32,036 bases of DNA, taken from assembly GCA_020849655.1 (NCBI GenBank), contig JADLFU010000017.1, positions 1 through 32,036 of the forward strand. The letters run 5' to 3'. The position numbers were made by a program, and so were the translations under genes. The notes below the pieces were generated by a model. The model was not told where the DNA came from. It made no database searches and was given only the letters and a program-made list of their open reading frames with translations. This document shows, piece after piece, positions 8,735-30,560 of the stretch. Position 1 is the first letter of the stretch. Each line of letters opens with the position of its first letter. This stretch comes from Polyangiaceae bacterium (lineage in GTDB: Bacteria; Myxococcota_A; Polyangia; Polyangiales; Polyangiaceae).

Positions 8735-10651
8735 ATGGAGATCAAGCTCAGTCAGAAGCTCACGCAGTCGCTGGTGATGACCCCGCAGCTGCAGCAGGCG
8801 ATCAAGCTGCTGCAGCTCTCGCGCCTGGAGCTGATCGACGAGGTCCGCCGCGAGATGGAGGCGAACCCGGTGCTCGCCGACGACGACATCGAGCCCCGCC
8901 AGGCGAGCGCGACCGACACGACGGCGCTGCCGGGGCTCTCCGACGAGGCGTTCGCCGACAACACCGAGCGCCACGTCCAGAAGGAGGGGCTCGCCGAGCG
9001 CAGCGACGAGAAGCGCGCGCAGGAGGTCGACTGGGAGCAATTCCTCGAGAACCGCTCGCTGCAGCAGACCACCTACTCGTCGAAGAGCGGCTTCGAGGAG
9101 CTCCCGCCGATCGAGCAGACGCTGTCGACCACGACGTCGCTCCAGGACCACCTGCTCTGGCAGCTCGGCGCGAACGACTTCAGCGACGCGGAGCGGCGGT
9201 TCGGCGAGCTCGTGATCGGCAACCTCGACGAGCAGGGGTTCCTCGATCTGTCGGGTGTGGAGGTCGGCCCCGACGGCGAGGAGATCTGCGAGATCACCCT
9301 CGGAGACCTCGCGCTCGCGAGCGATCTCGACCCCGAGGACGCCGAGGAGGTGCTGCGCCTCATCCAGCAGTTCGACCCCGTCGGCGTCGCCGCGCGCGAC
9401 CTCCGGGAGTGCCTGCTCGTGCAGGCCGAGCTCGCGGGCTTCGACTCGCTCGAGCTGTCGATCATCGAGCGGCACCTGCCCAACCTGGAGAAGCACAACT
9501 ACCAGGCGATCGCGCGCGACCTCGGCGTCCCCGTCGAGGAGGTCTACGAGGCCGCGAAGGAGATCCAGAAGCTCGAGAGCCGCCCCGCGCGCAACTTCAC
9601 GACGACCGACGAGCGCACGCTGATGATCTCCCCCGACGTCTACGTGACGAAGGAGGGCGACAAGTGGACGGTGCTCGACAACGACCGCGGGATGCAGCGG
9701 CTGTACATCAACGACGTCCTCGCGAAGCGGCTCCTGAAGGACCCGAAGGCGAAGGAGTACGTCGGCGAGAAGCTGAAGAACGCGCAGTGGCTGATGCGCG
9801 CCATCGAGCAGCGCCGCAAGACGATCATCCGCGTCACCGAGTCGATCGTCGAGCGGCAGCGCGACTTCTTCGAGAAGGGCCCGATGTTCCTGCGGCCGAT
9901 GATCCTCCGCGACATCGCCGACCAGGTCGGCATGCACGAGAGCACCATCTCGCGCGTCACGACCAACAAGTACGTGCACACGCCGCAGGGGCTGTTCGAG
10001 CTGAAGTACTTCTTCAACTCGTCGATCCGCCGCGTCGCCGAGGACGACATCGCCTCGGAGAGCGTGAAGCAATCCATCAAGAAGATCATCGACGAGGAGG
10101 ACAAGCAGTCCCCCCTCTCGGATCAGGCGCTCGTCGAGCTGCTCGAGAAGGCGTCGGGCATCCAGATCGCGCGCCGCACGGTCGCGAAATACCGCGAGAT
10201 GCTGGGCATCCTCGCGTCCAGCAAGCGCAAGAAGCTGTTCTTACGTCCCGCCACGAAGGAGGAGTCACGCCATGAACATCGCGATCACGTTTCGCCACCT
10301 CGACGCCACCGACGCCATGAAGGACTACGCCACGGAGAAGGTCGCGAAGCTCCAGAAGTTCCTCAGGCAGCCGATGCGCGCGCGGGTGACGCTCTCGCTC
10401 GAGAACAAGAAGCACCGCTGCGAGGCGGAGGTCAACGCGGGAGACGTGCACCTCGTCGCGAGCGAGGTGGGCGGCGACATGTACGCGTCGATCGACAGCG
10501 TCACCGACAAGCTGGAGCGGCAGATCAACCACCAGCACGGGGCGAAGATCGCGCAGAAGCGCGGCGCGGAGAGCGCGGGAGAGTTCGCGGCCCGAGGCTC
10601 CGGCCCGGTCCCCACCGTCGACGAGTGACCGCGCGCCGTGAAGCTCTGTGA
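8735..10651 (+). CDS. rpoN: RNA polymerase sigma-54 factor RpoN (open frame runs on through hpf)
   Basis: Sigma-54, which directs RNA polymerase to -24/-12 promoters and needs AAA+ activators. Region I (KLSQKLTQSLVMTPQLQQA, then IKLLQLSRLEL) covers residues 3-35. The core-binding domain follows, then the HTH region (SRVTTNKYVHTPQGLFELKYFF), and the RpoN box ARRTVAKYRE is at 479-488. The conserved protein should end at about residue 502 (SSKRKKLF, base 10240), giving normal family length. Codon 503 is TTA (10241-10243), not a stop, and the frame stays open to a TGA at 10649-10651. That adds 136 Arg-rich residues read in a different frame across the whole hpf gene. TTA is a very rare codon in such GC-rich DNA, and TAA or TGA is one base away. 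I think the natural stop was lost by mutation or miscalled. Confidence 0.9.
   Translation: MEIKLSQKLTQSLVMTPQLQQAIKLLQLSRLELIDEVRREMEANPVLADDDIEPRQASATDTTALPGLSDEAFADNTERHVQKEGLAERSDEKRAQEVDWEQFLENRSLQQTTYSSKSGFEELPPIEQTLSTTTSLQDHLLWQLGANDFSDAERRFGELVIGNLDEQGFLDLSGVEVGPDGEEICEITLGDLALASDLDPEDAEEVLRLIQQFDPVGVAARDLRECLLVQAELAGFDSLELSIIERHLPNLEKHNYQAIARDLGVPVEEVYEAAKEIQKLESRPARNFTTTDERTLMISPDVYVTKEGDKWTVLDNDRGMQRLYINDVLAKRLLKDPKAKEYVGEKLKNAQWLMRAIEQRRKTIIRVTESIVERQRDFFEKGPMFLRPMILRDIADQVGMHESTISRVTTNKYVHTPQGLFELKYFFNSSIRRVAEDDIASESVKQSIKKIIDEEDKQSPLSDQALVELLEKASGIQIARRTVAKYREMLGILASSKRKKLFLRPATKEESRHEHRDHVSPPRRHRRHEGLRHGEGREAPEVPQAADARAGDALAREQEAPLRGGGQRGRRAPRRERGGRRHVRVDRQRHRQAGAADQPPARGEDRAEARRGERGRVRGPRLRPGPHRRRVTARREAL
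10241..10651 (+). other. anomalous C-terminal extension of rpoN overlapping hpf
   Basis: Beyond the normal sigma-54 end, the rpoN frame continues through the hpf Shine-Dalgarno sequence, all of hpf and the first codons of ptsN. The extension is Arg/Gly/Ala-rich with no recognisable domain, which is what an out-of-frame reading of a GC-rich gene looks like. hpf keeps a perfect Shine-Dalgarno sequence (AAGGAGGAG, 10256-10264) and normal codon use, so it is the real gene here. Confidence 0.7.
10272..10628 (+). CDS. hpf: ribosome hibernation-promoting factor, short HPF/RaiA type
   Basis: 118 residues. The N-terminal MNIAITFRHLDATDAMKDYATEK and the following beta-alpha-beta-beta-beta-alpha pattern (VTLSLENKKHRCEAEVNAG, then MYASIDSVTDKLERQINHQ) are typical of HPF/RaiA. 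The protein binds the 30S decoding centre and promotes inactive 100S ribosomes in stationary phase. It lacks the C-terminal dimerisation domain of long HPF. The Shine-Dalgarno AAGGAGGAG at 10256-10264, seven bases before the ATG, is the strongest in the operon. The position after rpoN and before ptsN is conserved across proteobacteria. The rpoN frame is open through this gene (see that entry). Confidence 0.93.
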   Translation: MNIAITFRHLDATDAMKDYATEKVAKLQKFLRQPMRARVTLSLENKKHRCEAEVNAGDVHLVASEVGGDMYASIDSVTDKLERQINHQHGAKIAQKRGAESAGEFAARGSGPVPTVDE

Positions 10652-13322: not shown

Positions 13323-15146
13323 GTGCCGTCGAGCCCCTCCTCGACGCAGCTGCGCGCGGTCGCGATGGTGCTGACCGGCATCGCGGGCTCGCCCGGCGTC
13401 GGGGTGGGCCCGGCGATCGTGCTCGGACCTCGCCGGCTCACCTTCGTGCAGCGGCAGGTGCGCACGGCGGAGCACGACGGCGAGGTGGCGCGGTTCCGCC
13501 AGGCGGTCGTCGACGCGAAGCTCGAGCTCATGCGGCTCTCGCGCGGCGCGCAGCCGGGCGGCGCGCGGGCGGAGGTGTCGATCCTCGAGGCCTACACGCT
13601 GATGCTCGGCGACGAGCTGCTGGCCGAGGCCGTCGAGCGCAACGTGCGCGTGGAGCGCCAGTGCGCCGAGTGGGCGGTGTCGACCGCGATCACCGATTTC
13701 GCGCGCAAGCTCGCGCTCCAGGAGGACGCGTACCTGCGCGAGCGCAGCCACGACTTCGAGTTCGTCGGCGAGCGGCTGATCCTCGCGCTCACCGGCGCGA
13801 CGTCGACGCGCGCGCTCCCGCCGCTCGAGGAGCCGTCGGTCGTCATCGCGCACGATCTCTCGTCGGCCGATCTGCTGTCGCTCGATCCGAAGAAGATCCT
13901 CGGCGTCGCGACCGAGGTCGGCACGAAGACGAGCCACACCGCGATCGTCGCGCGCGCGCTCGGGCTGCCCGCGGTGATGGGCGCCTGCGGGCTCGTGGAC
14001 AACGTGGTCTCGGGCGACGCGGTCGTCGTCGACGGCCTGCGCGGGACGGTGACCCTGCGCCCGAGCGAGGACACGGCGCGCAGCGGCCTCGCCCGCGGCG
14101 AGCGGCACCTCGCGCTCACCCGGCACCTGCGCAGCGACGCGGCCCGGCCCGGCGCGCTCGCGAGCGGAGAGCGGGTCGGCCTGTTCGCGAACATCGAGTT
14201 CGCGAAGGAGGCGGGCGGCGCGATCGAGCACGGCGCGGACGGCGTCGGCCTGTACCGCACCGAATTCTTGTACCTGGGTCGGACCGATCTCCCGTCGGAG
14301 GAGGAGCAGCTCGAGCAGTTTCGGCGCGTGCTCGAGGTCGTCGACGGTCGCCCCGTCACGCTCCGCACGTTCGATCTCGGCGGCGACAAACCCTTCGGGC
14401 GGCTCGCGCCGCCGCCGGAGCCGAACCCCGCGCTCGGGCTGCGCGCGGTGCGCCTCGGCCTGCGGCACCCGGACGTGCTCGTCGCGCAGCTGCGCGCGAT
14501 GATCCGCGCGTCCGCGTTCGGCGACGTCCGGGTGATGGTGCCCATGATCGCCACCTTGCGCGAGTGGGTCGACGTCAGGCGGCTGTTCTCGCAGGCGCTC
14601 GCCGACGTCGATCGCGAGGGCTCGCCGCGGGCCACGCGCGTGCCGTTCGGCTCGATGATCGAGGTGCCCTCGGCCGCGGTGCTGTCGGACGCGCTCGCGC
14701 AGGCCGCCGAGTTCGTCAGCGTCGGCACGAACGATCTCGTGCAGTACACGCTCGCGGTCGACCGCACGAGCCCGGGCCTCGCGTCGCTCGCGTCTCACTT
14801 CGATCCGGCGGTGCTGCGGCTGCTCTCCGGCGTCGCCTCGTCGTCGTCGGCCGCGGGGTGCCCCGCGTCGGTGTGCGGCGCGATGGCGGCGGACCCGCTG
14901 GCGGCGCTGCTCCTGGTCGGGCTCGGGTTCCGCGCGCTGTCGATGGAGCCGGGGGCCATCCCCGAGGTGAAGGAGGCCCTGTCGCGCGTCACGCTCTCCG
15001 AGGTCACCGAGGCCGCGACGGGCGCCCTGCGGCTCACCTCGGCCGACGAGATCGAGCACGCGCTCGCCGTCTCGTTCGCGCCGCGCCTCTTCGACCTGCT
15101 CTCCGGCGACGAGGCCAACGCGCCCGGGCGCGCCGGGCGGTCGTGA
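13323..15146 (+). CDS. ptsI: PTS phosphoenolpyruvate-protein phosphotransferase (enzyme I)
   Basis: Cytoplasmic enzyme that takes phosphate from phosphoenolpyruvate and passes it to HPr. It has 607 residues; the E. coli PtsI length is about 575. The swivelling-domain histidine is His205 in GTKTSHTAIVAR. The barrel has GLYRTEFLYL, TLRTFDLGGDKP, GSMIEVPSA and FVSVGTNDLVQYTLAVDR, and the catalytic cysteine Cys518 in SVCGAMAADP. No N-terminal GAF domain is present, so this is the ordinary EI form and not the longer nitrogen form PtsP. GTG at 13323 follows the HPr stop by three bases; an internal ATG at 13365 lacks a Shine-Dalgarno sequence. Its stop overlaps the following kinase start as GTGA. 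Confidence 0.94.
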   Translation: MPSSPSSTQLRAVAMVLTGIAGSPGVGVGPAIVLGPRRLTFVQRQVRTAEHDGEVARFRQAVVDAKLELMRLSRGAQPGGARAEVSILEAYTLMLGDELLAEAVERNVRVERQCAEWAVSTAITDFARKLALQEDAYLRERSHDFEFVGERLILALTGATSTRALPPLEEPSVVIAHDLSSADLLSLDPKKILGVATEVGTKTSHTAIVARALGLPAVMGACGLVDNVVSGDAVVVDGLRGTVTLRPSEDTARSGLARGERHLALTRHLRSDAARPGALASGERVGLFANIEFAKEAGGAIEHGADGVGLYRTEFLYLGRTDLPSEEEQLEQFRRVLEVVDGRPVTLRTFDLGGDKPFGRLAPPPEPNPALGLRAVRLGLRHPDVLVAQLRAMIRASAFGDVRVMVPMIATLREWVDVRRLFSQALADVDREGSPRATRVPFGSMIEVPSAAVLSDALAQAAEFVSVGTNDLVQYTLAVDRTSPGLASLASHFDPAVLRLLSGVASSSSAAGCPASVCGAMAADPLAALLLVGLGFRALSMEPGAIPEVKEALSRVTLSEVTEAATGALRLTSADEIEHALAVSFAPRLFDLLSGDEANAPGRAGRS

Positions 15147-16276
15147 GCGACCTCGCGGAGGGAGCGCTCGTCGACGGGCGGTTCCGCGTGGACGGCGTGC
15201 TCGGGCGCGGCGCGATGGGCGTCGTGTACGCGGCGACGCACGAGCGGCTCGCGCAGCCCGTCGCGCTCAAGGTCATCACGAAGGGCGTGCTCGGCGAAGG
15301 GGAGGCGCGTGCCCGGTTCACCCGCGAGGCGCGCGTGCTCGCGCGGCTCTCGACCCGCCACGCGCCCCGCGTCCTCGACATCGGCGAGCTCGACGACGGC
15401 CCGTACATGGCGCTCGAGCGGCTGCGCGGGCAGGATCTCGCGCGACGCATCGAGGCGTCCCCCCACTTCGAGATCGACGAGGCGCTGACGATCGCGGTGC
15501 AGGTGCTCGACGCGCTCGCGGAGGCGCATTCGCTCGGCGTCGTGCACCGGGACGTGAAGCCCGCGAACGTGTTCCTCGCCGAGGTCGCGGGCGAGGGCGC
15601 GGTCGCGAAGGTGCTCGACTTCGGCATCTCGAAGGCGAAGGAGGCCCCCGGCGGCTCGCTCACCGGGACGCACGAGATGATGGGCTCGCCCGGCTACATG
15701 GCCCCCGAGCAGATCCTGGCGACGAGCGAGGTCGATCCGCGCGCGGATCTCTGGTCGTGGGGCGCGCTCTTCTACGAGCTGCTCGCCGGCGCTCCGGCGT
15801 TCCGCGGCGACGCCGTCGGGGTCGTCCTCGCGGAGGTGCTGGAGGGGCGCCTCGAGCCCGTCGGCGCGCGCCGAGGCGTCCCCGACGCGCTCGCCCGCGT
15901 CGTGCACAGGTGCCTCGAGCGCGAGATCGCGCTGCGCTTCGCGACGGCGGGCGAGATCGCGGCCGCGCTCGCGCCGCACGCGCCCCCGGAGCTCGCGCAC
16001 CTCCTGCTCCGCATCCAGACCCTCTCGGAGGTGCGGGCGCCCGAGACCGTGCGCGACCCTCGGTTCGCGCCGCCCTCCACGCCGCGCCCGACGCTCCCCG
16101 ATCTCCCGAGGTTCGGGCCCGCGGCAGAGACCGTCGCCGCGCCGCCCGCGACCGAGGTGTGGCGCGAGGCCCCGGCGGCCCGCGGCGGGGCGCGGCCGTG
16201 GCTCGTCGCGCTCCTCGTCACGGCGGCGCTGGTCCTTGGCTTCGCGCTCCGAGCCTTGCTCGTCGAGCGAGGATGA
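15143..16276 (+). CDS. tail-anchored Ser/Thr protein kinase
   Basis: 377 residues. This is a complete Hanks-type kinase domain (14-285): Gly-rich loop GRGAMGVVY (21-29), Lys43 in ALKVI, catalytic loop HRDVKPAN (135-142), DFG at 159-161, and SPGYMAPEQ in the activation segment. A proline- and alanine-rich linker (about 305-350) leads to a single hydrophobic helix at about 352-373 that ends in VERG. There is no extracytoplasmic sensor domain. The start overlaps the ptsI stop (GTGA), so the kinase is probably made together with enzyme I. This pairing suggests cross-talk between the PTS and Ser/Thr phosphorylation, but the substrate is unknown. It converges on bamD three bases away. Confidence 0.92.
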   Translation: MSDLAEGALVDGRFRVDGVLGRGAMGVVYAATHERLAQPVALKVITKGVLGEGEARARFTREARVLARLSTRHAPRVLDIGELDDGPYMALERLRGQDLARRIEASPHFEIDEALTIAVQVLDALAEAHSLGVVHRDVKPANVFLAEVAGEGAVAKVLDFGISKAKEAPGGSLTGTHEMMGSPGYMAPEQILATSEVDPRADLWSWGALFYELLAGAPAFRGDAVGVVLAEVLEGRLEPVGARRGVPDALARVVHRCLEREIALRFATAGEIAAALAPHAPPELAHLLLRIQTLSEVRAPETVRDPRFAPPSTPRPTLPDLPRFGPAAETVAAPPATEVWREAPAARGGARPWLVALLVTAALVLGFALRALLVERG

Positions 16277-16279
16277 TCG

Positions 16280-17089
16280 TCAGCGCGGCACGGCCGAGTG
16301 CCGCTGCTCGATCTCGGCCTCGAGGCGCCTCGCCGCGTCCACGAAGGGGCTGCCGGGGTACGTCGCGAACAGCTGCGCGAGCACCTGCTTGCTCTCCGGG
16401 ATCTTCTTCATCTTCAGGTAGGTCTCGGCGAGCAGCAGCATGGCCTCGGGCTCGAGCCCGCTGCCGTCGTACGTCGCGAGCGCGTACTGCACCCGCTTCA
16501 TCGCCGGCTCGAACCTCCCCGCGCCGAGATAGTACCGGGCGACGTACAGCTCGTGCCGCACGAGCCGCCCGGTGACCGAGAGGAGCATGTACTTCGCGTC
16601 GCGCGACCAGCGCGACTCGGGGTGATCGAGGAGGAACGAGTTGAGCTCGCGGTAGGCGTCGACGATCGCGCCCTGATCGCGCTCCTCCTGCGGCGGCAAG
16701 AGGATCGTGTCGGACACCTGCGCGAACAGCGCCTTGCAGATGCGGAACCGCGCGTACGGCACGCCCTCGTCGGTGCGGTGATCGTGCGCGAAGGAGCGGT
16801 ACCCCGTGATCGCCGAGGTGAACTTCTCCTGCTCGAAGTCGATGTCCGCGAGCCGCAGCTCGGCCTCGCGCGCCCACTTCGAGTACGCGTACTTGCGCTT
16901 CACCTCGCCGAAGAGCACGCGCGCCTCCTCCCAGTCCTTCTCGAGGAACGCCTCGACGGCGCGATCGTAGGCCTTCTTCGCGTCCTCCGCGTACTTCAGC
17001 GGGTTGGCGGGCGGCGCGCTCTGCGTCTCCGCGCACGCGGCGGCGAGCGGGGCGACGGCGACGAAGGCGGCGAGCACGAGGCGGCGCAC
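16280..17089 (-). CDS. bamD: outer membrane assembly lipoprotein BamD
   Basis: 269 residues. A lipoprotein signal peptide with hydrophobic core LVLAAFVAVAPLAAA runs to the lipidated Cys19. The mature part is a chain of tetratricopeptide-like helices: YDRAVEAFLEKDWEEARVLF, then YSKWAREAELRLADIDF and SAITGYRSFAHDHRTDEGV. These are the YfiO/BamD repeats. BamD is the essential lipoprotein of the BAM complex that inserts beta-barrel proteins into the outer membrane. The GTG start at 17089 gives the correct signal peptide; upstream readings are Arg-rich and implausible. The C-terminus retains TYLKMKKIPESKQVLAQLF. It is a single-gene unit, divergent from the SDR. Confidence 0.88.
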   Translation of the reverse strand: MRRLVLAAFVAVAPLAAACAETQSAPPANPLKYAEDAKKAYDRAVEAFLEKDWEEARVLFGEVKRKYAYSKWAREAELRLADIDFEQEKFTSAITGYRSFAHDHRTDEGVPYARFRICKALFAQVSDTILLPPQEERDQGAIVDAYRELNSFLLDHPESRWSRDAKYMLLSVTGRLVRHELYVARYYLGAGRFEPAMKRVQYALATYDGSGLEPEAMLLLAETYLKMKKIPESKQVLAQLFATYPGSPFVDAARRLEAEIEQRHSAVPR

Positions 17090-17096
17090 GTCGTCG

Positions 17097-17125
17097 CTGC
17101 TACGCCCGCCGCGCCCTCGGAGCAA
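17097..17125 (-). promoter_or_regulatory. candidate promoter of bamD
   Basis: On the minus strand, TTGCTC (17120-17125), a 17-base spacer and TAGCAG (17097-17102) are followed after only seven bases by the bamD GTG. No Shine-Dalgarno sequence is present, so the transcript would be leaderless. Confidence 0.35.
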
Positions 17126-17177
17126 GCGGGGCCGCGCGCCTTGACGGGCTGCGCCCCCGTTGCGATGCGCGGGTCGC

Positions 17178-18026
17178 ATGACGGGCTCGATGGACGGCAA
17201 GGTCGTGGTCATCACCGGCGCTGGCGGCGGCATCGGCCGGGCGGCGGCGCTGCTCTTCGCAGACGAGGGGGCGCGGCTCGTCGTCAACGATCTCGGCGCC
17301 GACGTCGACGGCACGGGCGCCGATCCGTCACGCGCGGAGGAGGTCGCCGCGGCGGTCCGCGAGCGCGGCGGCCTCGCGGTCGCGCACCACGGCGACGTCG
17401 CCGTCCGCGCCGACGTCGAGGCGATGATCGGGCTCGCCGTCCGCGAGTACGGGCGCGTCGACGCGCTGGTGAACAGCGCCGGCATCCTCCGCGACCGGAC
17501 GCTCCTCAGGCAGGAGGACGCCGACTGGGACGCCGTCGTCGGCGTGCACCTGCGCGGCGCGTTCCTGTGCACGCAGCTCGCCGCGCGCCAGATGATCTCG
17601 CAGGGCGAGGGCGGCCGCATCGTGCACACGACCAGCGTCGCCGGGCTGCAGGGGAGCTTCGGCCAGGCGAGCTACTCCGCCGCGAAGGCGGGCGTCTACG
17701 GCCTCACGCGCACCGCGGCGATCGAGCTGCAGCGGCACCGCATCACCGTCAACGCGCTCGCGCCGATCGCCAAGACGCGCATGACGGAGGATCTGCCGAT
17801 GTTCCACGGCAAGGACTCGATGACGCCGGAGCACGTCGCGCCGGCCGCGGTCTTCCTGGGCTCGCCGCTCGCCGGCGACCGCACCGGGTTCGTCCTCGCG
17901 GTGTCGGGCTCGCGGATGTACGCGTACAAGCTCGTCGAGGCCGACGGGCGGTTCAAGGAGGGCGGGCGACCCTGGACGCCCGCCGAGATCGCAGAGCACT
18001 GGGACTCGATCACCCGCGCGCGCTGA
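17178..18026 (+). CDS. SDR family oxidoreductase (multifunctional enzyme type 2-like)
   Basis: NAD(P)-dependent short-chain dehydrogenase of 282 residues. The cofactor motif TGAGGGIG is at 13-20, followed by VVNDLGADVDGTG, a stretch typical of the (3R)-hydroxyacyl-CoA dehydrogenase domain of type 2 multifunctional beta-oxidation enzymes. Next are NSAGI (99-103, usually NNAG), the catalytic Ser153, and YSAAK (Tyr166, Lys170). The most likely substrate is a hydroxyacyl-CoA or steroid-like alcohol, which is an inference from similarity to that subfamily. It lacks the hydratase and sterol-carrier domains of the eukaryotic protein. ATG 17178 is chosen; ATG 17190 is also possible. A TTGACG at 17141-17146 may be its -35 box. 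Confidence 0.88.
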   Translation: MTGSMDGKVVVITGAGGGIGRAAALLFADEGARLVVNDLGADVDGTGADPSRAEEVAAAVRERGGLAVAHHGDVAVRADVEAMIGLAVREYGRVDALVNSAGILRDRTLLRQEDADWDAVVGVHLRGAFLCTQLAARQMISQGEGGRIVHTTSVAGLQGSFGQASYSAAKAGVYGLTRTAAIELQRHRITVNALAPIAKTRMTEDLPMFHGKDSMTPEHVAPAAVFLGSPLAGDRTGFVLAVSGSRMYAYKLVEADGRFKEGGRPWTPAEIAEHWDSITRAR

Positions 18027-18048
18027 CGCGCGTGAGGTCGGCGGTCGA

Positions 18049-18450
18049 TCAGTCGTCTTCGTCCTTCTCGCCGCCCGGCTCCTCGTCGTCGTCCTCGTCG
18101 TCCTCGTCGTCGTCCTCGTCATCGAGATCGAGGTCGTCGTCGTCCTCGTCGTCGTCCTCGGAGGCGGCGCCCTTCGACTCCAGCTTGAGATCGATGCCCA
18201 GCTCGCCGAGCTGCGTCTCCAGCATCTCGAAGAGCTCCTCGACGTCGTCGACGCTCCACTCGTCGAGCATGTCGGTGATGAACTCGAAGAAGTCACCGCT
18301 GTCGAGGCGTCGATCGATCTCGTCGGTCTGCTCCTCGCTGAACGCCTCGAGGATGTCCTCTCGGAGCGCCTCGGTGTCGCCCTCCTCGATGGCGTCCTGG
18401 GCAGAGAGACGGATCAGCTTCACGGCGCGCTTGTCGAGGTGGATCTCCAT
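18049..18450 (-). CDS. hypothetical protein with polyacidic C-terminal tail
   Basis: 133 residues. Residues 1-95 are predicted mostly helical (EIHLDKRAVKLIRLSAQDA, then ILEAFSEEQTDEIDRRLD and VDDVEELFEMLETQLG) with no family I recognise. Residues 98-133 are almost only Asp and Glu with a few Gly/Lys, giving an extremely acidic tail. There is no signal peptide or membrane helix, so it is probably cytoplasmic. A clear Shine-Dalgarno sequence (AGGAG about 12 bases before the ATG on the minus strand) supports the start. Acidic tails of this sort often bind basic proteins or mimic nucleic acid, but no function can be stated. It is divergent from the PilZ gene. Confidence 0.75.
   Translation of the reverse strand: MEIHLDKRAVKLIRLSAQDAIEEGDTEALREDILEAFSEEQTDEIDRRLDSGDFFEFITDMLDEWSVDDVEELFEMLETQLGELGIDLKLESKGAASEDDDEDDDDLDLDDEDDDEDDEDDDEEPGGEKDEDD
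18078..18160. repeat. low-complexity TCG/TCC trinucleotide tract
   Basis: A run built almost entirely of TCG and TCC triplets on the plus strand encodes the Asp/Glu tail of the minus-strand gene. It is irregular, so it is a codon-level low-complexity tract and not a CRISPR array. Such tracts can change length by slippage. Confidence 0.8.
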
Positions 18451-25794: not shown

Positions 25795-27768
25795 GTGCGG
25801 GGGCCGGTGATCTCGTCGCGCGGGGTCGGCAGGCTGATCGTCGGAGCGCTCCTCGGCGCGGGGTACGTGGCCGCGCTCGCGCTGGTCGTCGCCCGCCGCG
25901 CGGCCTCGGACACGCGGGTGCTCGGCGTCGAGGCCGCGCACGTGACGCGCGCGATCGTCGAGCGCTTCCCCGACCACGTCGCCTCGGCGGCGCGCCTCGT
26001 GGCGTCGCTCGCCGTCGTCGAGGGCGCGCTCGTGGGCGCGGCGGCGGCGGCCGTCCTCGAGCTGCGTGAGCTCGCGCAGCAGAGATCGCTCGGCCGCCGC
26101 GCCTGGCTGCCGCTGCTCGTGCTCATCCCCCTCGCGCACCTCGCGCACCTCACGTGGGCGATGGCGTGGCACCCGGCGTTGTTCTCCGAGGCGTTCTACG
26201 AAGCCGGGGGCGCCCGCCGGCTGCTCCAGGTCGTCGTGACGGACCAGCTCGGTCCGGGCGGGGTCGTGGTCGCGTGGACGGCCGCGTCGACGCTGTTCGT
26301 CCTGGGTGGCCAGCGGGCGCGCGCGTCGTGGTCGCGCCTCCGGGCGCGCGCGCGCGGGCTCGGGGCGCTCGCCGGGGCGCTCGGCGCGTTCACCGTGATC
26401 GTGTGGGCTTGGCCCGCTTCACGTCCTCGCGCGGCGGCGAGATCGAGGCCGAACGTCCTCATCCTCGCGGTCGACTCTCTCCGCACGGACCGGGTGACGC
26501 CGCGCACGATGCCCGCGCTCTCGCGGTTCGTGGCCGGCGCGACCTCGTTCGAGCGGGCGTATGTCTCGGTGCCGCGCACCTTCCCTTCCTGGGTGACGTG
26601 GCTCACCGGGCGCTGGCCCCACGAGCACGGGGTCCGCCACATGTTCCCGTCCGCGCGCGCGCGGTCGAGCGAGCTCCGCGCGCTGCCCGCGCGCCTCGCC
26701 GAGGCCGGCTACGCCACGGCGGTCGCCAGCGACTACGCGGGCGACGTCTTCCCGCGGGTGTCGCTGGGGTTCCAGAGGGTCGACACGCCGACCTTCCACT
26801 TCGGAGAGCTCATCCGCCACAAGGCGCTCGAGTCGCAGCCGCCCGTGATGCCGCTCCTCACGAGTCGCCTCGGTCGGTGGCTCGCGCCGACGACCCGCGG
26901 CCTCGCGCGGCTGCCCGACGCCCGCGACGTCGCCGACCGCGCGCTCGGGGCCATCGACGCGGCGGGCGACCGCCCGTTCTTCGTCGTCGCGTTCTTCGGC
27001 GATGCACACTTTCCTTACGCGATCACCCACGAGGACCGCGCCGGACTCGACCGCGCGTACCGCGGCAGGTTCAAGTACGAGAAGCAGAACCGCCTCGGTC
27101 GCGACGCCCCCCCCGACGACGCGGACGTCGCGCAGATCCGCGCGCTCTACGACGGCGCGACGCGCGCGGTCGACAGAGGGATCGCGCGGGCGCTCGCGGG
27201 TCTGCGCGCGCGCGGGCTCGAGGGATCGACCGTCGTGATCGTCACGGCCGATCACGGCGAGGCGCTGCTCGAGCACGGCAGGGGGCAAGGCCACGGCGAT
27301 CACCTGTTCGGCGAGGACGTGCTGCGTGTCCCGCTCGTCATCCGCGACGGCCGGGCGCCTCGCCCCGCGAGGATCGACGCCGTGGTGCGGGACGTCGATC
27401 TCGCGCCGACGGTGGCGGAGCTGGTCGGCGTCGACGCCGAGGGCGCGACGTCGGGCGCGTCGCTCGCGCCGGCGCTCCGGGGCGAGGCGCTCCCCGCGCG
27501 AGACGCGTTCTCCGAGACGGGCCTGTGGTTCACCGAGGACGTCGACGGCGTCCCGCGCGCGCTGCGCCTGCCATACCCGGACGTCTCGCGCATGCTCGAG
27601 GTCGAGCGCGATCGCGGCGACGACGTCGTGCTCGCCGAGCGCTGGGCGGCGACGACGACGATGGCGAAGCACCGCGCGCTCACGACGGCGACCCACCGCC
27701 TCGTGCTGATGCCGACCCGCGGCGGCCTGCGCGAGCGGCTGTTCGATCTGTCGCGAGATCCGGGCTGA
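25795..27768 (+). CDS. membrane sulfatase/alkaline-phosphatase-fold enzyme with Thr nucleophile, cut by an in-frame TGA
   Basis: 657 residues to the TGA at 27766. About five membrane helices occupy residues 11-206. The sulfatase fold follows: metal-binding Asp227 in VLILAVDSLRTD, a nucleophile segment RTFPSWVTWLTG, and TADHGEALLEHG. At the position of the formylglycine Cys/Ser of true sulfatases there is Thr262, and the usual Arg is Trp. This fits phosphotransferase-type members (as in LtaS or EptA) more than a sulfatase. The frame stays open after the TGA for 54 sensible codons to 27933, where it overlaps the next gene as ATGA, so the natural end was probably there. GTG 25807 with a nearer G-rich stretch is an alternative start. 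Confidence 0.82.
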   Translation: MRGPVISSRGVGRLIVGALLGAGYVAALALVVARRAASDTRVLGVEAAHVTRAIVERFPDHVASAARLVASLAVVEGALVGAAAAAVLELRELAQQRSLGRRAWLPLLVLIPLAHLAHLTWAMAWHPALFSEAFYEAGGARRLLQVVVTDQLGPGGVVVAWTAASTLFVLGGQRARASWSRLRARARGLGALAGALGAFTVIVWAWPASRPRAAARSRPNVLILAVDSLRTDRVTPRTMPALSRFVAGATSFERAYVSVPRTFPSWVTWLTGRWPHEHGVRHMFPSARARSSELRALPARLAEAGYATAVASDYAGDVFPRVSLGFQRVDTPTFHFGELIRHKALESQPPVMPLLTSRLGRWLAPTTRGLARLPDARDVADRALGAIDAAGDRPFFVVAFFGDAHFPYAITHEDRAGLDRAYRGRFKYEKQNRLGRDAPPDDADVAQIRALYDGATRAVDRGIARALAGLRARGLEGSTVVIVTADHGEALLEHGRGQGHGDHLFGEDVLRVPLVIRDGRAPRPARIDAVVRDVDLAPTVAELVGVDAEGATSGASLAPALRGEALPARDAFSETGLWFTEDVDGVPRALRLPYPDVSRMLEVERDRGDDVVLAERWAATTTMAKHRALTTATHRLVLMPTRGGLRERLFDLSRDPG

Positions 27769-27933
27769 ACCCGCGATCTCTCCCCGGAGGAGCCCGCGCT
27801 CGCCGCCGAGCTGCGCGCGCGGCTGCTCTCGTGGGTGCTCGCCGATCGAGACATGTCGCTCTCGAGCGGTCACCTCCTCCACCGCCGCGTCGCCGAGACC
27901 GCGACGAGCGCGCTCTCGCTGCCGTCGCCATGA
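27766..27933 (+). other. in-frame TGA and the severed C-terminal tail of the preceding gene
   Basis: After the TGA (27766-27768), directly following LFDLSRDPG, the same frame encodes TRDLSPEEPALAAELRARLL and then a helical stretch to a TGA at 27931-27933. DPG followed by a polar residue and RDLS is the normal continuation at the end of the sulfatase fold. The tail has ordinary composition and ends in an ATGA overlap with the next start. A single-base change of GGA, CGA or TGG would give the TGA. Confidence 0.75.
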
Positions 27934-30560
27934 AGCTGCGCCTCGCCCGGTCGTCGCCGCCCGTCGCGCTGGTCGTCGCGCTCACGGCCGCCGTGGTGAT
28001 CGCTCGCCGCGAGGGGACGCCGCGCTCGCCCCCGATCCCCGCGCCTGCCCCGCCGACCGCGGCCTCCGCGCGCGCCGTGCCCGCGCCTCTGGCGTCCGTC
28101 GCCGAGCGCCTCGCGGCTCACCCCGACCGCCTCCGCGCAGAGCTGCCGAGGCTCGATCGCGCGTACCCCGGGTTCCGAAAGGCCTGCTGGCGCTCGCTGC
28201 CCTCGCCGTACGCGCGCTCCTCCCCTCTGCCCCGTCGCGCGCTCTCGATCGTGGCGCTGCCCTCGTCGCGCGAGCTCGGCCAGAAGGCCGAGCAGGCGAG
28301 CGGCTGGCGCGAGGACGAGCGGACCTGGAACATGAGCCAGGCGAGCTTCGAGCTGCGAGAGTCCTTCGTCGCGCCGCCGCCGGGCACGCTGCGCTACCGC
28401 GTGCGCCTCCCCGAGGGCGGGCGGCTCGAGGTCGGCACGGCGGCGGTCGCGCTCCCCGCGTCCAGCGTGACGTTCGAGGTCGCGGTGAGGGCGGCGAGCG
28501 GCGAGCGCGCGGTCGTCGACCAGTCGCGCGTCTCCGCAGGAGAGCCCACCGCGTGGCACGAGCGCGTGGTCGATCTCTCGCGGTTCTCGGGGGAGGAGGT
28601 GGAGCTCGAGCTCGTCACCACGACCCGCTACACGGGCGACGATCCGCCGACCGCGCTCTGGGGCACGCCGACGATCGTGGGGCGCGGGCCGGCGCCGGTG
28701 CCGTACTCGGTGCTGTGGATCGTCGTCGACGCGCTGCGGCCCGACGTGCTCGCCGCGCTGCACACGCCGGAGCTGGACGCCGCGCGCGCGGCCGCGGCGC
28801 TGCCGCCGAAGGAGGCCTGGCTGCCCGCGATGCCGACGGTCGCGCCGAACCTCGACGCGCTCGCCGCCCGCGGCGTCTCGTTCGCCGACGCGACCAGCGC
28901 CGCGACCTGGACGCGCCCCGGCACGATCGCGCTGCTCGCGGGCGCGCGCTCGACGGAGCTCGGCCTCGACGCGACGCCCTGGGTGCTGCCCGAGAGCACG
29001 ATCCAGCAGTTCTACTCGCGGCGCCCGCCGCTCGTCCCGCTCGTGCTCGGCGGCCTCGGCGTGCGCGTCGAGGGCTTCGTGAACAACTTCTTCCTCGCGG
29101 GCTACGCGCGCGTGGGCGTCGACGCGGGCTTCCCCCGGCTGGTCGACCACCGGCACGAGACCCTCGACACGCGGCGCATCGTGCGGGACGCCGTCGCCTT
29201 CCTCGAGGCGCGCAAGGACGAGCGGACCTTCGCCTTCGTCAACCTCAACTCACCTCACAATCCTTACGACCCTCCCGACCGCTGCCTCGCGCGCGTGCCG
29301 CCGCCGCCGCTCGGGCCGCGCGATCCGACGGTGCGGAAGTACCTCGCCGAGATCTCGAAGGACGACGAGGCGGTGGGCGAGCTGCTCGCGGCGCTCGACC
29401 GCACGGGCGCGCGCGAGCGCACGCTGGTCGTGGTGACGGCCGATCACGGCGAGACGTTGAGCGAGGACCACGACTGGCTCGTGCACGGGCTCGGCAAGGG
29501 GCAGGGCTCGACTCGCTTCCGCCACGCGAACGCGATGTTCGACGAGACGACGCGCGTGCCGCTCGTGCTGTCGCTGCCCGGCGTGCTGCCCGAGGGGCGC
29601 GTCGTGCGGGCGCCCGTCTCGACGATCGATCTCGCGCCGACGGTGCTGTCGGTGCTCGGCGTGCCGGCTCCCCCGCGGATGACGGGCGTGGATCTGACGC
29701 CGCTCGCGCGCGGGGCCGACGGGCCGCGCGACAGGCCGATCGTGACCGAGGGCCGCGCCGCGCGCAGCGTCCGCGTCGGGCGCTACCGCTACGTCGAGCG
29801 AGACCCTGCCGCGCGCGAGGTGTCGGGGCCCACCCTCGGCCACCATGTCTGGAGAGAGGAGCTCTACGATCTCGAGGCCGATCCCGGCGAGCGGCGGAAC
29901 GTCGTCGCCGACCTGCCCGACGTCGCGTCGAGGCTGCGCGAAGAGCTCGGCGCGGCGCTCGCCACCTCGACGACGTTCGACACGAAGGACAGCGAGGCGC
30001 TGGCGGCCACGCGGCACGTGCGGCGCCCGGCCGGTGAGCCGTTGCGCGTGCGCCTGCGCTTCGTCGGCGCGGGTCGCGCGCGCAGGTTCGCGCTCCGTGG
30101 CAGCCTGCCCGCTCCCGAGCCAGGCGCGCCCGAGCCGACGGTGCGCGGGACCGTGGTCGCGGCCGAGCCCGAGGCGCTCCGCGTCGACGGCCGCGCGTTC
30201 GACCTCTCGCTCACGAGCCTGCCGGACGCGCAGGTCGGCGTCGATCTCGAGCTGTCGCCGTCGACGGCGCCGCTCACCTGGGAGGTGTCGCTCGACGACG
30301 CGCCGATCCCCCCCGAGCTGATGTTCGCTGGTCGCTACGGCCTGTCGCTGCCCGCGCTCGCCGCCGGGCTGGTGGGCGCCGACGCGCGGGCCTTCGCGGT
30401 CGGCGAGGCCGTGCCGCGGATCGATCCGCGCGGCGACCTGGGGGTGTTCGTCGTCGTCGCGCCCGGGGACGTCTCGGTCGTCGACGGCGCGCGCGACGAG
30501 GCGCTGCAGGAGATGCGAGGGCTGCTCGAGGCGTGGGGCTACGCGAAGACTGCCAAGTGA
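27930..30560 (+). CDS. large sulfatase-fold protein with Thr at the nucleophile position
   Basis: 876 residues. An N-terminal signal anchor (VALVVALTAAVVIARR) and a Pro/Ala-rich linker precede a beta-sandwich-like region (about 110-250: LRYRVRLPEGGRLEVGTAAV, then HERVVDLSRFSGEEVELEL). The sulfatase fold follows: Asp267 in VLWIVVDALRPD, Thr328 in TWTRPGTIALLAG where sulfatases carry the formylglycine Cys/Ser, FVNLNSPHNPYDPP, and TADHGETLSEDH (about 503-514), ending near LYDLEADPGERRN. A C-terminal beta-rich domain of about 200 residues follows. It was probably co-translated with its neighbour (ATGA overlap). The two share the fold but little sequence, so they are not a recent duplication. Substrate unknown; a phospho- or phosphotransfer chemistry in the periplasm is plausible. 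Confidence 0.85.
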   Translation: MKLRLARSSPPVALVVALTAAVVIARREGTPRSPPIPAPAPPTAASARAVPAPLASVAERLAAHPDRLRAELPRLDRAYPGFRKACWRSLPSPYARSSPLPRRALSIVALPSSRELGQKAEQASGWREDERTWNMSQASFELRESFVAPPPGTLRYRVRLPEGGRLEVGTAAVALPASSVTFEVAVRAASGERAVVDQSRVSAGEPTAWHERVVDLSRFSGEEVELELVTTTRYTGDDPPTALWGTPTIVGRGPAPVPYSVLWIVVDALRPDVLAALHTPELDAARAAAALPPKEAWLPAMPTVAPNLDALAARGVSFADATSAATWTRPGTIALLAGARSTELGLDATPWVLPESTIQQFYSRRPPLVPLVLGGLGVRVEGFVNNFFLAGYARVGVDAGFPRLVDHRHETLDTRRIVRDAVAFLEARKDERTFAFVNLNSPHNPYDPPDRCLARVPPPPLGPRDPTVRKYLAEISKDDEAVGELLAALDRTGARERTLVVVTADHGETLSEDHDWLVHGLGKGQGSTRFRHANAMFDETTRVPLVLSLPGVLPEGRVVRAPVSTIDLAPTVLSVLGVPAPPRMTGVDLTPLARGADGPRDRPIVTEGRAARSVRVGRYRYVERDPAAREVSGPTLGHHVWREELYDLEADPGERRNVVADLPDVASRLREELGAALATSTTFDTKDSEALAATRHVRRPAGEPLRVRLRFVGAGRARRFALRGSLPAPEPGAPEPTVRGTVVAAEPEALRVDGRAFDLSLTSLPDAQVGVDLELSPSTAPLTWEVSLDDAPIPPELMFAGRYGLSLPALAAGLVGADARAFAVGEAVPRIDPRGDLGVFVVVAPGDVSVVDGARDEALQEMRGLLEAWGYAKTAK

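Follow-up and report, generated by a model that had tools for sequence, protein, structure and literature searches.

UUA very probably acts as a stop codon, beside UGA, UAG and UAA, in a clade of four Myxococcota genomes, and the in-frame TGA reported from one of them is, in the same reading, an ordinary stop. The codon was quite probably reassigned from leucine to stop through a remodelled release factor 2 (RF2) after loss of tRNA-Leu(UAA), which would be the first sense-to-stop reassignment outside organelles. At the level of sequence, this is suggested by the position of UUA at gene ends, by its exchange with canonical stops, by the failure to find a matching tRNA and by a changed RF2. The code of the genome is accordingly described here as unusual at TTA rather than at TGA, the TTA having been missed by an earlier note on this DNA.

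The window, meaning the whole analysed stretch of 32,036 nucleotides, belongs to genome G000, a draft assembly of 307 contigs and 6.56 Mb, of which about 576 kb was sampled (73.6% GC in the sample). Together with a congener (G001) and two genomes of a second genus (G019 and G078) it forms the four-genome clade, all four members being drafts with a completeness of 81-97%. Two relatives with the standard code (G014 and G021) served as controls.

A sulfatase-fold gene with an in-frame TGA

The sulfatase-fold gene is a GTG-started ORF of 657 aa on the forward strand (25795-27768), with the Pfam Sulfatase domain (PF00884) at residues 219-546, and it is cut by an in-frame TGA (27766-27768). After this TGA the same frame gives 54 sense codons (27769-27930, TRDLSPEEP...SLPSP) until a further TGA at 27931-27933, which overlaps the ATG of the next gene at 27930 as ATGA (27930-27933, forward strand). 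The cut and the 54-codon continuation to the overlap had both been claimed in the earlier note and were confirmed. The next gene (27930-30560, forward strand) encodes a second sulfatase-fold protein of 876 aa, identified by family match. At the usual catalytic site the first protein reads RTFPSW, which we take to suggest a threonine nucleophile rather than a formylglycine sulfatase, and its N-terminal third looks membrane-bound by eye.

An open tail of 54 codons by itself means little at this GC content, and it is homology, as judged from alignment, that raises it above chance, because the G001 orthologue aligns across all 54 codons, with 67% identity, the same SLPSP end and the same ATGA overlap. 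Relatives of the gene were sought in 58 other genomes (cut-off E<=1e-30), 17 of which gave a match, and 16 sequences were taken into the alignment at the TGA; L015, which runs off its contig, and L025, which is without the C-terminal half, were left out, and L026 lies on the same contig as L009. All 15 aligned orthologues that end inside their locus, and so have a visible end, run past the TGA point, and the sixteenth (L018) has no stop within its locus and continues far past the conserved tail. The residue opposite the TGA, for which the earlier note had proposed such an alignment, is Glu in 12 of the 16, Cys (TGT) in G001, Asn in one, Asp in one and a gap in one. Orthologues that stop here, with an unconserved tail, are thus the opposite of what was found, and the proposal that the ancestral stop lay at 27931-27933 is supported both by the orthologues that run through and by the shared ATGA overlap. 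Decay of the tail was considered and rejected: pn/ps between G000 and G001 is 0.61 in the tail versus 0.35 upstream, a value as high as the tail's is reached by 12% of 54-codon windows taken upstream, and a comparison by lineage shows no excess in G000 (three changes in G000 versus five in the congener in the tail, 37 versus 29 upstream, p 0.46), with no sign of long disuse.

Nothing was found that recodes the TGA. TGA ends 361 of the 454 sampled G000 genes, and a UGA-reading tRNA or a tRNA-Trp with a 4-bp stem was rejected, there being no UCA anticodon among 40 G000 tRNAs and the anticodon stem of tRNA-Trp having its full 5 bp. A Cys opposite a TGA is the usual sign of a selenocysteine/cysteine pair, and the TGT of the congener, with the conserved tail after the TGA, prompted consideration of selenocysteine or programmed readthrough. 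Such a reading is extremely improbable, and the selenocysteine candidate was rejected: selA gave no match in G000, and selB and tRNA-Sec none over the cut-off, whereas the same searches found all three in the relative G011 as a positive control; the orthologues mostly carry Glu at the site; no tRNA with a UCA anticodon was seen; and for the 50 bases starting at the TGA the fold is on a par with that of shuffled sequence (z 0.04). At 27755-27780 a hairpin of 10 bp, interrupted by a single bulge, places the TGA in its loop (GAGATCCGGG-CTGAA-CCCGCGATCTC; z -2.02, with 5 of 200 shuffles folding as well). It is not seen by eye in the aligned bases of the congener and is probably due to chance.

Given that the searches yielded neither selenocysteine machinery nor a tRNA with a UCA anticodon, and that most sampled genes end in TGA, the codon is read as a plain stop and not as a recoding signal, in agreement with the earlier view that readthrough or a reassigned TGA was less likely. 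As far as sequence can tell, and if the base is right, it removes 55 codons of the gene, either by a recent nonsense change or by a consensus error. An error of the draft consensus, with the gene intact in the organism, is a tentative but substantial possibility: the assembly is in 307 contigs, the tail is not decayed, and the TGA is one base away from the TGT of the congener. Against it, no other clean interruption was found when 77 G001 genes were compared with G000 with TTA taken as a stop, and the assembly is not visibly error-prone.

TTA at gene ends

The frequency of in-frame stops in G000 was gauged by comparing contigs syntenic with G001. Among 77 G001 genes with a homologue of at least 50% identity, five show a stop within the match, namely the reported gene, one gene with TGA in G000 and TTA in G001, and three cases at or beyond gene ends. 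The site G000:C64:90549 at first resembled a second premature TGA, and the TTA found there in G001 led to TTA as a stop; this site may be a single gene interrupted in G000. A frameshift in the same contig (G000:C64) proved only apparent, a TTA ending the first gene ahead of a second, which is presumably a glutathione transferase. Several genes, rpoN and infB among them, have TTA at their ends in both G000 and G001.

The rpoN case lies in the window. The sigma-54 gene (8735-10243, forward strand, 502 aa; TIGR02395 and Sigma54_DBD) ends in TTA (10241-10243) and not in a standard stop, and TTA occurs at the same point in G001. TIGR02395 is matched over its full length (1-434 of 434) at RpoN residues 9-499, complete three residues before the TTA, and Sigma54_DBD is complete immediately ahead of it. 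The two genomes share the end AAG AAG CTG TTC TTA, and conservation breaks off shortly afterwards. The hpf/yfiA gene for a hibernation factor follows (10272-10628, forward strand, TIGR00741); under translation table 11 the rpoN frame overruns it out of register in G000 and is fused with it in G001.

Orthologous gene ends were compared in 82 reciprocal pairs from the G000 and G001 samples, of which 28 had differing ends and 54 were flush. TTA is involved in nine of the 54 flush ends, with three TTA/TTA, five TTA/TGA and one TTA/TAG, that is, at conserved gene ends where it exchanges with canonical stops in six cases. The exchanges are mostly with TGA, as a one-base drift from UGA to UUA would predict. 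Between G019 and G000, two of seven flush ends show an exchange of TTA with a canonical stop, the genes being TypA/BipA and GreA by Pfam. With all codons allowed (n=54), the codon in G001 opposite the canonical stops of G000 is a canonical stop in 42 cases, TTA in four and eight others once each; the reverse table (n=54) gives 43 canonical stops, three TTA (two distinct sites) and eight others. Apart from the TGA/TGT pair of the reported gene, the other codons occur where the lengths differ by one codon or the ends match weakly.

All sense codons of G000, G001 and G019 were also scanned for whether the 40 codons that follow still look coding. The signal is lost after 20 of 30 TTA codons, the next worst codon being GTA (30 of 139) and the figure for all codons 4724 of 201783 (2.3%; Fisher p ~6e-26 for TTA). 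In the controls G014 and G021, where TTA is rare too, it is lost after one of five (p 0.11, a small sample), and in G078 two TTA codons passed the filter. Coding-like sequence follows TTA in six of the 30 cases: in four of them the following gene shares the frame, the fifth is the IF-2 case, and the sixth is the ORF G000:C91:34604 (minus strand). TTG keeps the coding signal afterwards in 341 of 395 cases in G000, and UCA is not among the outlying codons of the scan.

Thirty TTA-containing ORFs were examined with Pfam (20 of the 21 long G000 ORFs, 9 of 11 from G019 and one from G078), 24 of which have domains; the upstream domains end before the TTA, except for one that passes it by two residues. 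In four ORFs a new domain begins after the TTA (Pth, NUDIX, aldose epimerase and complex I chain 5), giving single-frame pairs such as L25|TTA|Pth, RelA|TTA|aldose epimerase and NuoK|TTA|NuoL. In the first of these, on the minus strand at L085:4872-6128 (G000:C37), L25 and peptidyl-tRNA hydrolase share one open frame by Pfam, with the TTA as sole separator.

No codon is rarer than TTA in the first sample of G000, where it occurs 7 times in 54319, always at gene ends; it is a leucine codon inside prfB of G005, G016, G021 and G030. As far as Pfam shows, no TTA of the G000 sample stands at a conserved sense position, although the one in ORF G000:C91:34604 might be a sense codon; one TTA of G001 does lie at such a position, inside the conserved G-domain of IF-2 (L081:889-891, G001:C64), where G000 has TTC. 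The latter may be a counterexample, a base error near the contig end or a real break. Forced gene calling with TTA as a stop gave TTA ends in the controls as well (3 of 162 in G014, 15 of 126 in G021), and the resulting count was not used as evidence because the procedure breaks genes there.

tRNA-Leu(UAA), RF2 and competing explanations

The tRNA-Leu anticodons in G000, G001, G019 and G078 are CAA, CAG, GAG and TAG, and a TAA anticodon was not found among the tRNAs read from these genomes, an absence that is provisional in drafts; other tRNAs (Asn, for example) are likewise missing from the G000 list. The reading covered all 34 matches in G001 and, in G019 and G078, the long (class II) tRNAs among the matches listed. 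A tRNA-Leu with the TAA anticodon is present in G014, a relative with the SPF form of RF2. A DNA pattern for tRNA-Leu(UAA) had hits in 33 of 59 genomes; G000, G001 and G019 were not among these, but 23 others were missed too, and the pattern is weak evidence alone. The number of tRNA matches is 87 in G019 versus 33-43 in G000, G001, G014 and G078, and one locus of G019 (L242, G019:C300, ~14000-18100) holds an array of more than 20 matches on one strand within 4 kb.

The SPF motif of RF2 contacts the stop codon. It reads SPY in G000, G001, G019 and G078 and SPF in the other 46 of the 50 sequences read, so that the codon-recognition region is changed in exactly the four clade genomes. The clade RF2 keeps the serine of the motif, carries an insertion of three residues roughly 30 positions upstream of it, at what we take to be the tip of the helix that recognises the first codon base, and has other shared changes. 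An RF2 match was obtained in 98 of 108 genomes of the family, where the clade four stand apart at 622-805 bits versus at most 501. By eye, RF1 of G000, G001 and G019 is ordinary. The coincidence of the RF2 change with the clade suggests that RF2 itself reads UUA.

The events leading to this state may have been ordered as follows. High GC would have made UUA very rare, and tRNA-Leu(UAA) would then have been lost. The altered codon-recognition region of RF2 (SPF to SPY plus the three-residue insertion) would have come to accept U at the second position, after which a single base change from a UGA stop to UUA would have been harmless, RF2 tolerating the U. A codon-capture model agrees with the high GC content and with how rare TTA is.

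Two other readings of the TTA data were weighed. UUA might have no assignment at all, so that ribosomes stall on it for want of a tRNA and the protein is freed by tmRNA or an ArfB-like rescue factor. The failure to find tRNA-Leu(UAA) in the four genomes would suit this, as would an ArfB-like GGQ protein in G000 (G000:C66), but ArfB-like proteins also occur in the SPF relatives G011, G014 and G021. The RF2 change in exactly the same four genomes also speaks against stalling, and UUA ends essential and probably highly expressed genes, including those for IF-2, TypA, L25, EF-G and GreA; this explanation is considered improbable. Still less probable is that TTA remains a very rare leucine codon and that the proteins carry unconserved C-terminal extensions. 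Its rarity in the standard-code relatives as well and the single TTA at a conserved position of G001 IF-2 speak for leucine, but the extensions would have to begin exactly at the canonical stops of the orthologues, six times in 54, L25 would be fused to Pth and NuoK to NuoL, and the codon would need decoding without any tRNA that was found. Termination at UUA, probably by the altered RF2, is the preferred reading.

Relation to known code changes

If true, the bacterial case would carry a sense-to-stop change into cellular genomes of several megabases, and the clade RF2 would be a natural factor with an apparently widened codon specificity, found next to relatives that keep the old code. It has a practical side in annotation, where table-11 gene calls in the clade over-extend or fuse genes, as with rpoN over hpf, L25/Pth and NuoK/NuoL. 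A search of the open-licence literature found no bacterial precedent for UUA as a sense-to-stop change; organellar precedents exist.

The bacterial reassignments described with Codetta concern, as far as the available text goes, new amino-acid meanings, and its authors state that the method cannot detect new stop codons (PMC8629427). The present clade is like those cases in that a bacterial code change is deduced from genomes, tRNAs and release factors, and it points to a blind spot, since screens that assign amino acids would miss new stops (PMC8629427).

The organellar comparisons all come from one account, as far as its available text goes. In Marsupiomonadales mitochondria, UUA and UUG are described as stops read by mtRF1a, likewise a leucine-to-stop change, but one that involves an RF1-type factor and both UUR codons, whereas in the clade TTG keeps its coding signal and RF1 is ordinary (PMC12574857). 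In labyrinthulean mitochondria, UUA is a stop via mtRF2a (as cited in PMC12574857), and the attribution to an RF2-type factor is shared with the clade; the differences are the mitochondrial setting and a serine substitution proposed as the cause (PMC12574857). In the peDinoflagellate plastids UUA and UCA are stops via pRF2, and the authors count this as the first discovery of a sense-to-stop change beyond mitochondria (PMC12574857). These plastids resemble the clade in a leucine-to-stop change of UUA at conserved gene ends with an altered codon-binding region of an RF2-type factor (PMC12574857). They differ in being organelles, in the substitution of RF2 Ser204 with a two-residue deletion there, and in having UCA as a further stop (PMC12574857). 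If the residue is the same one, the clade, which keeps its serine, departs from the organellar UUA stops, for which a substitution of Ser204 has been proposed (PMC12574857). The Myxococcota clade, by comparison with the plastids, combines a bacterial genome with an SPF-to-SPY change, a three-residue insertion and a UCA codon that does not stand out.
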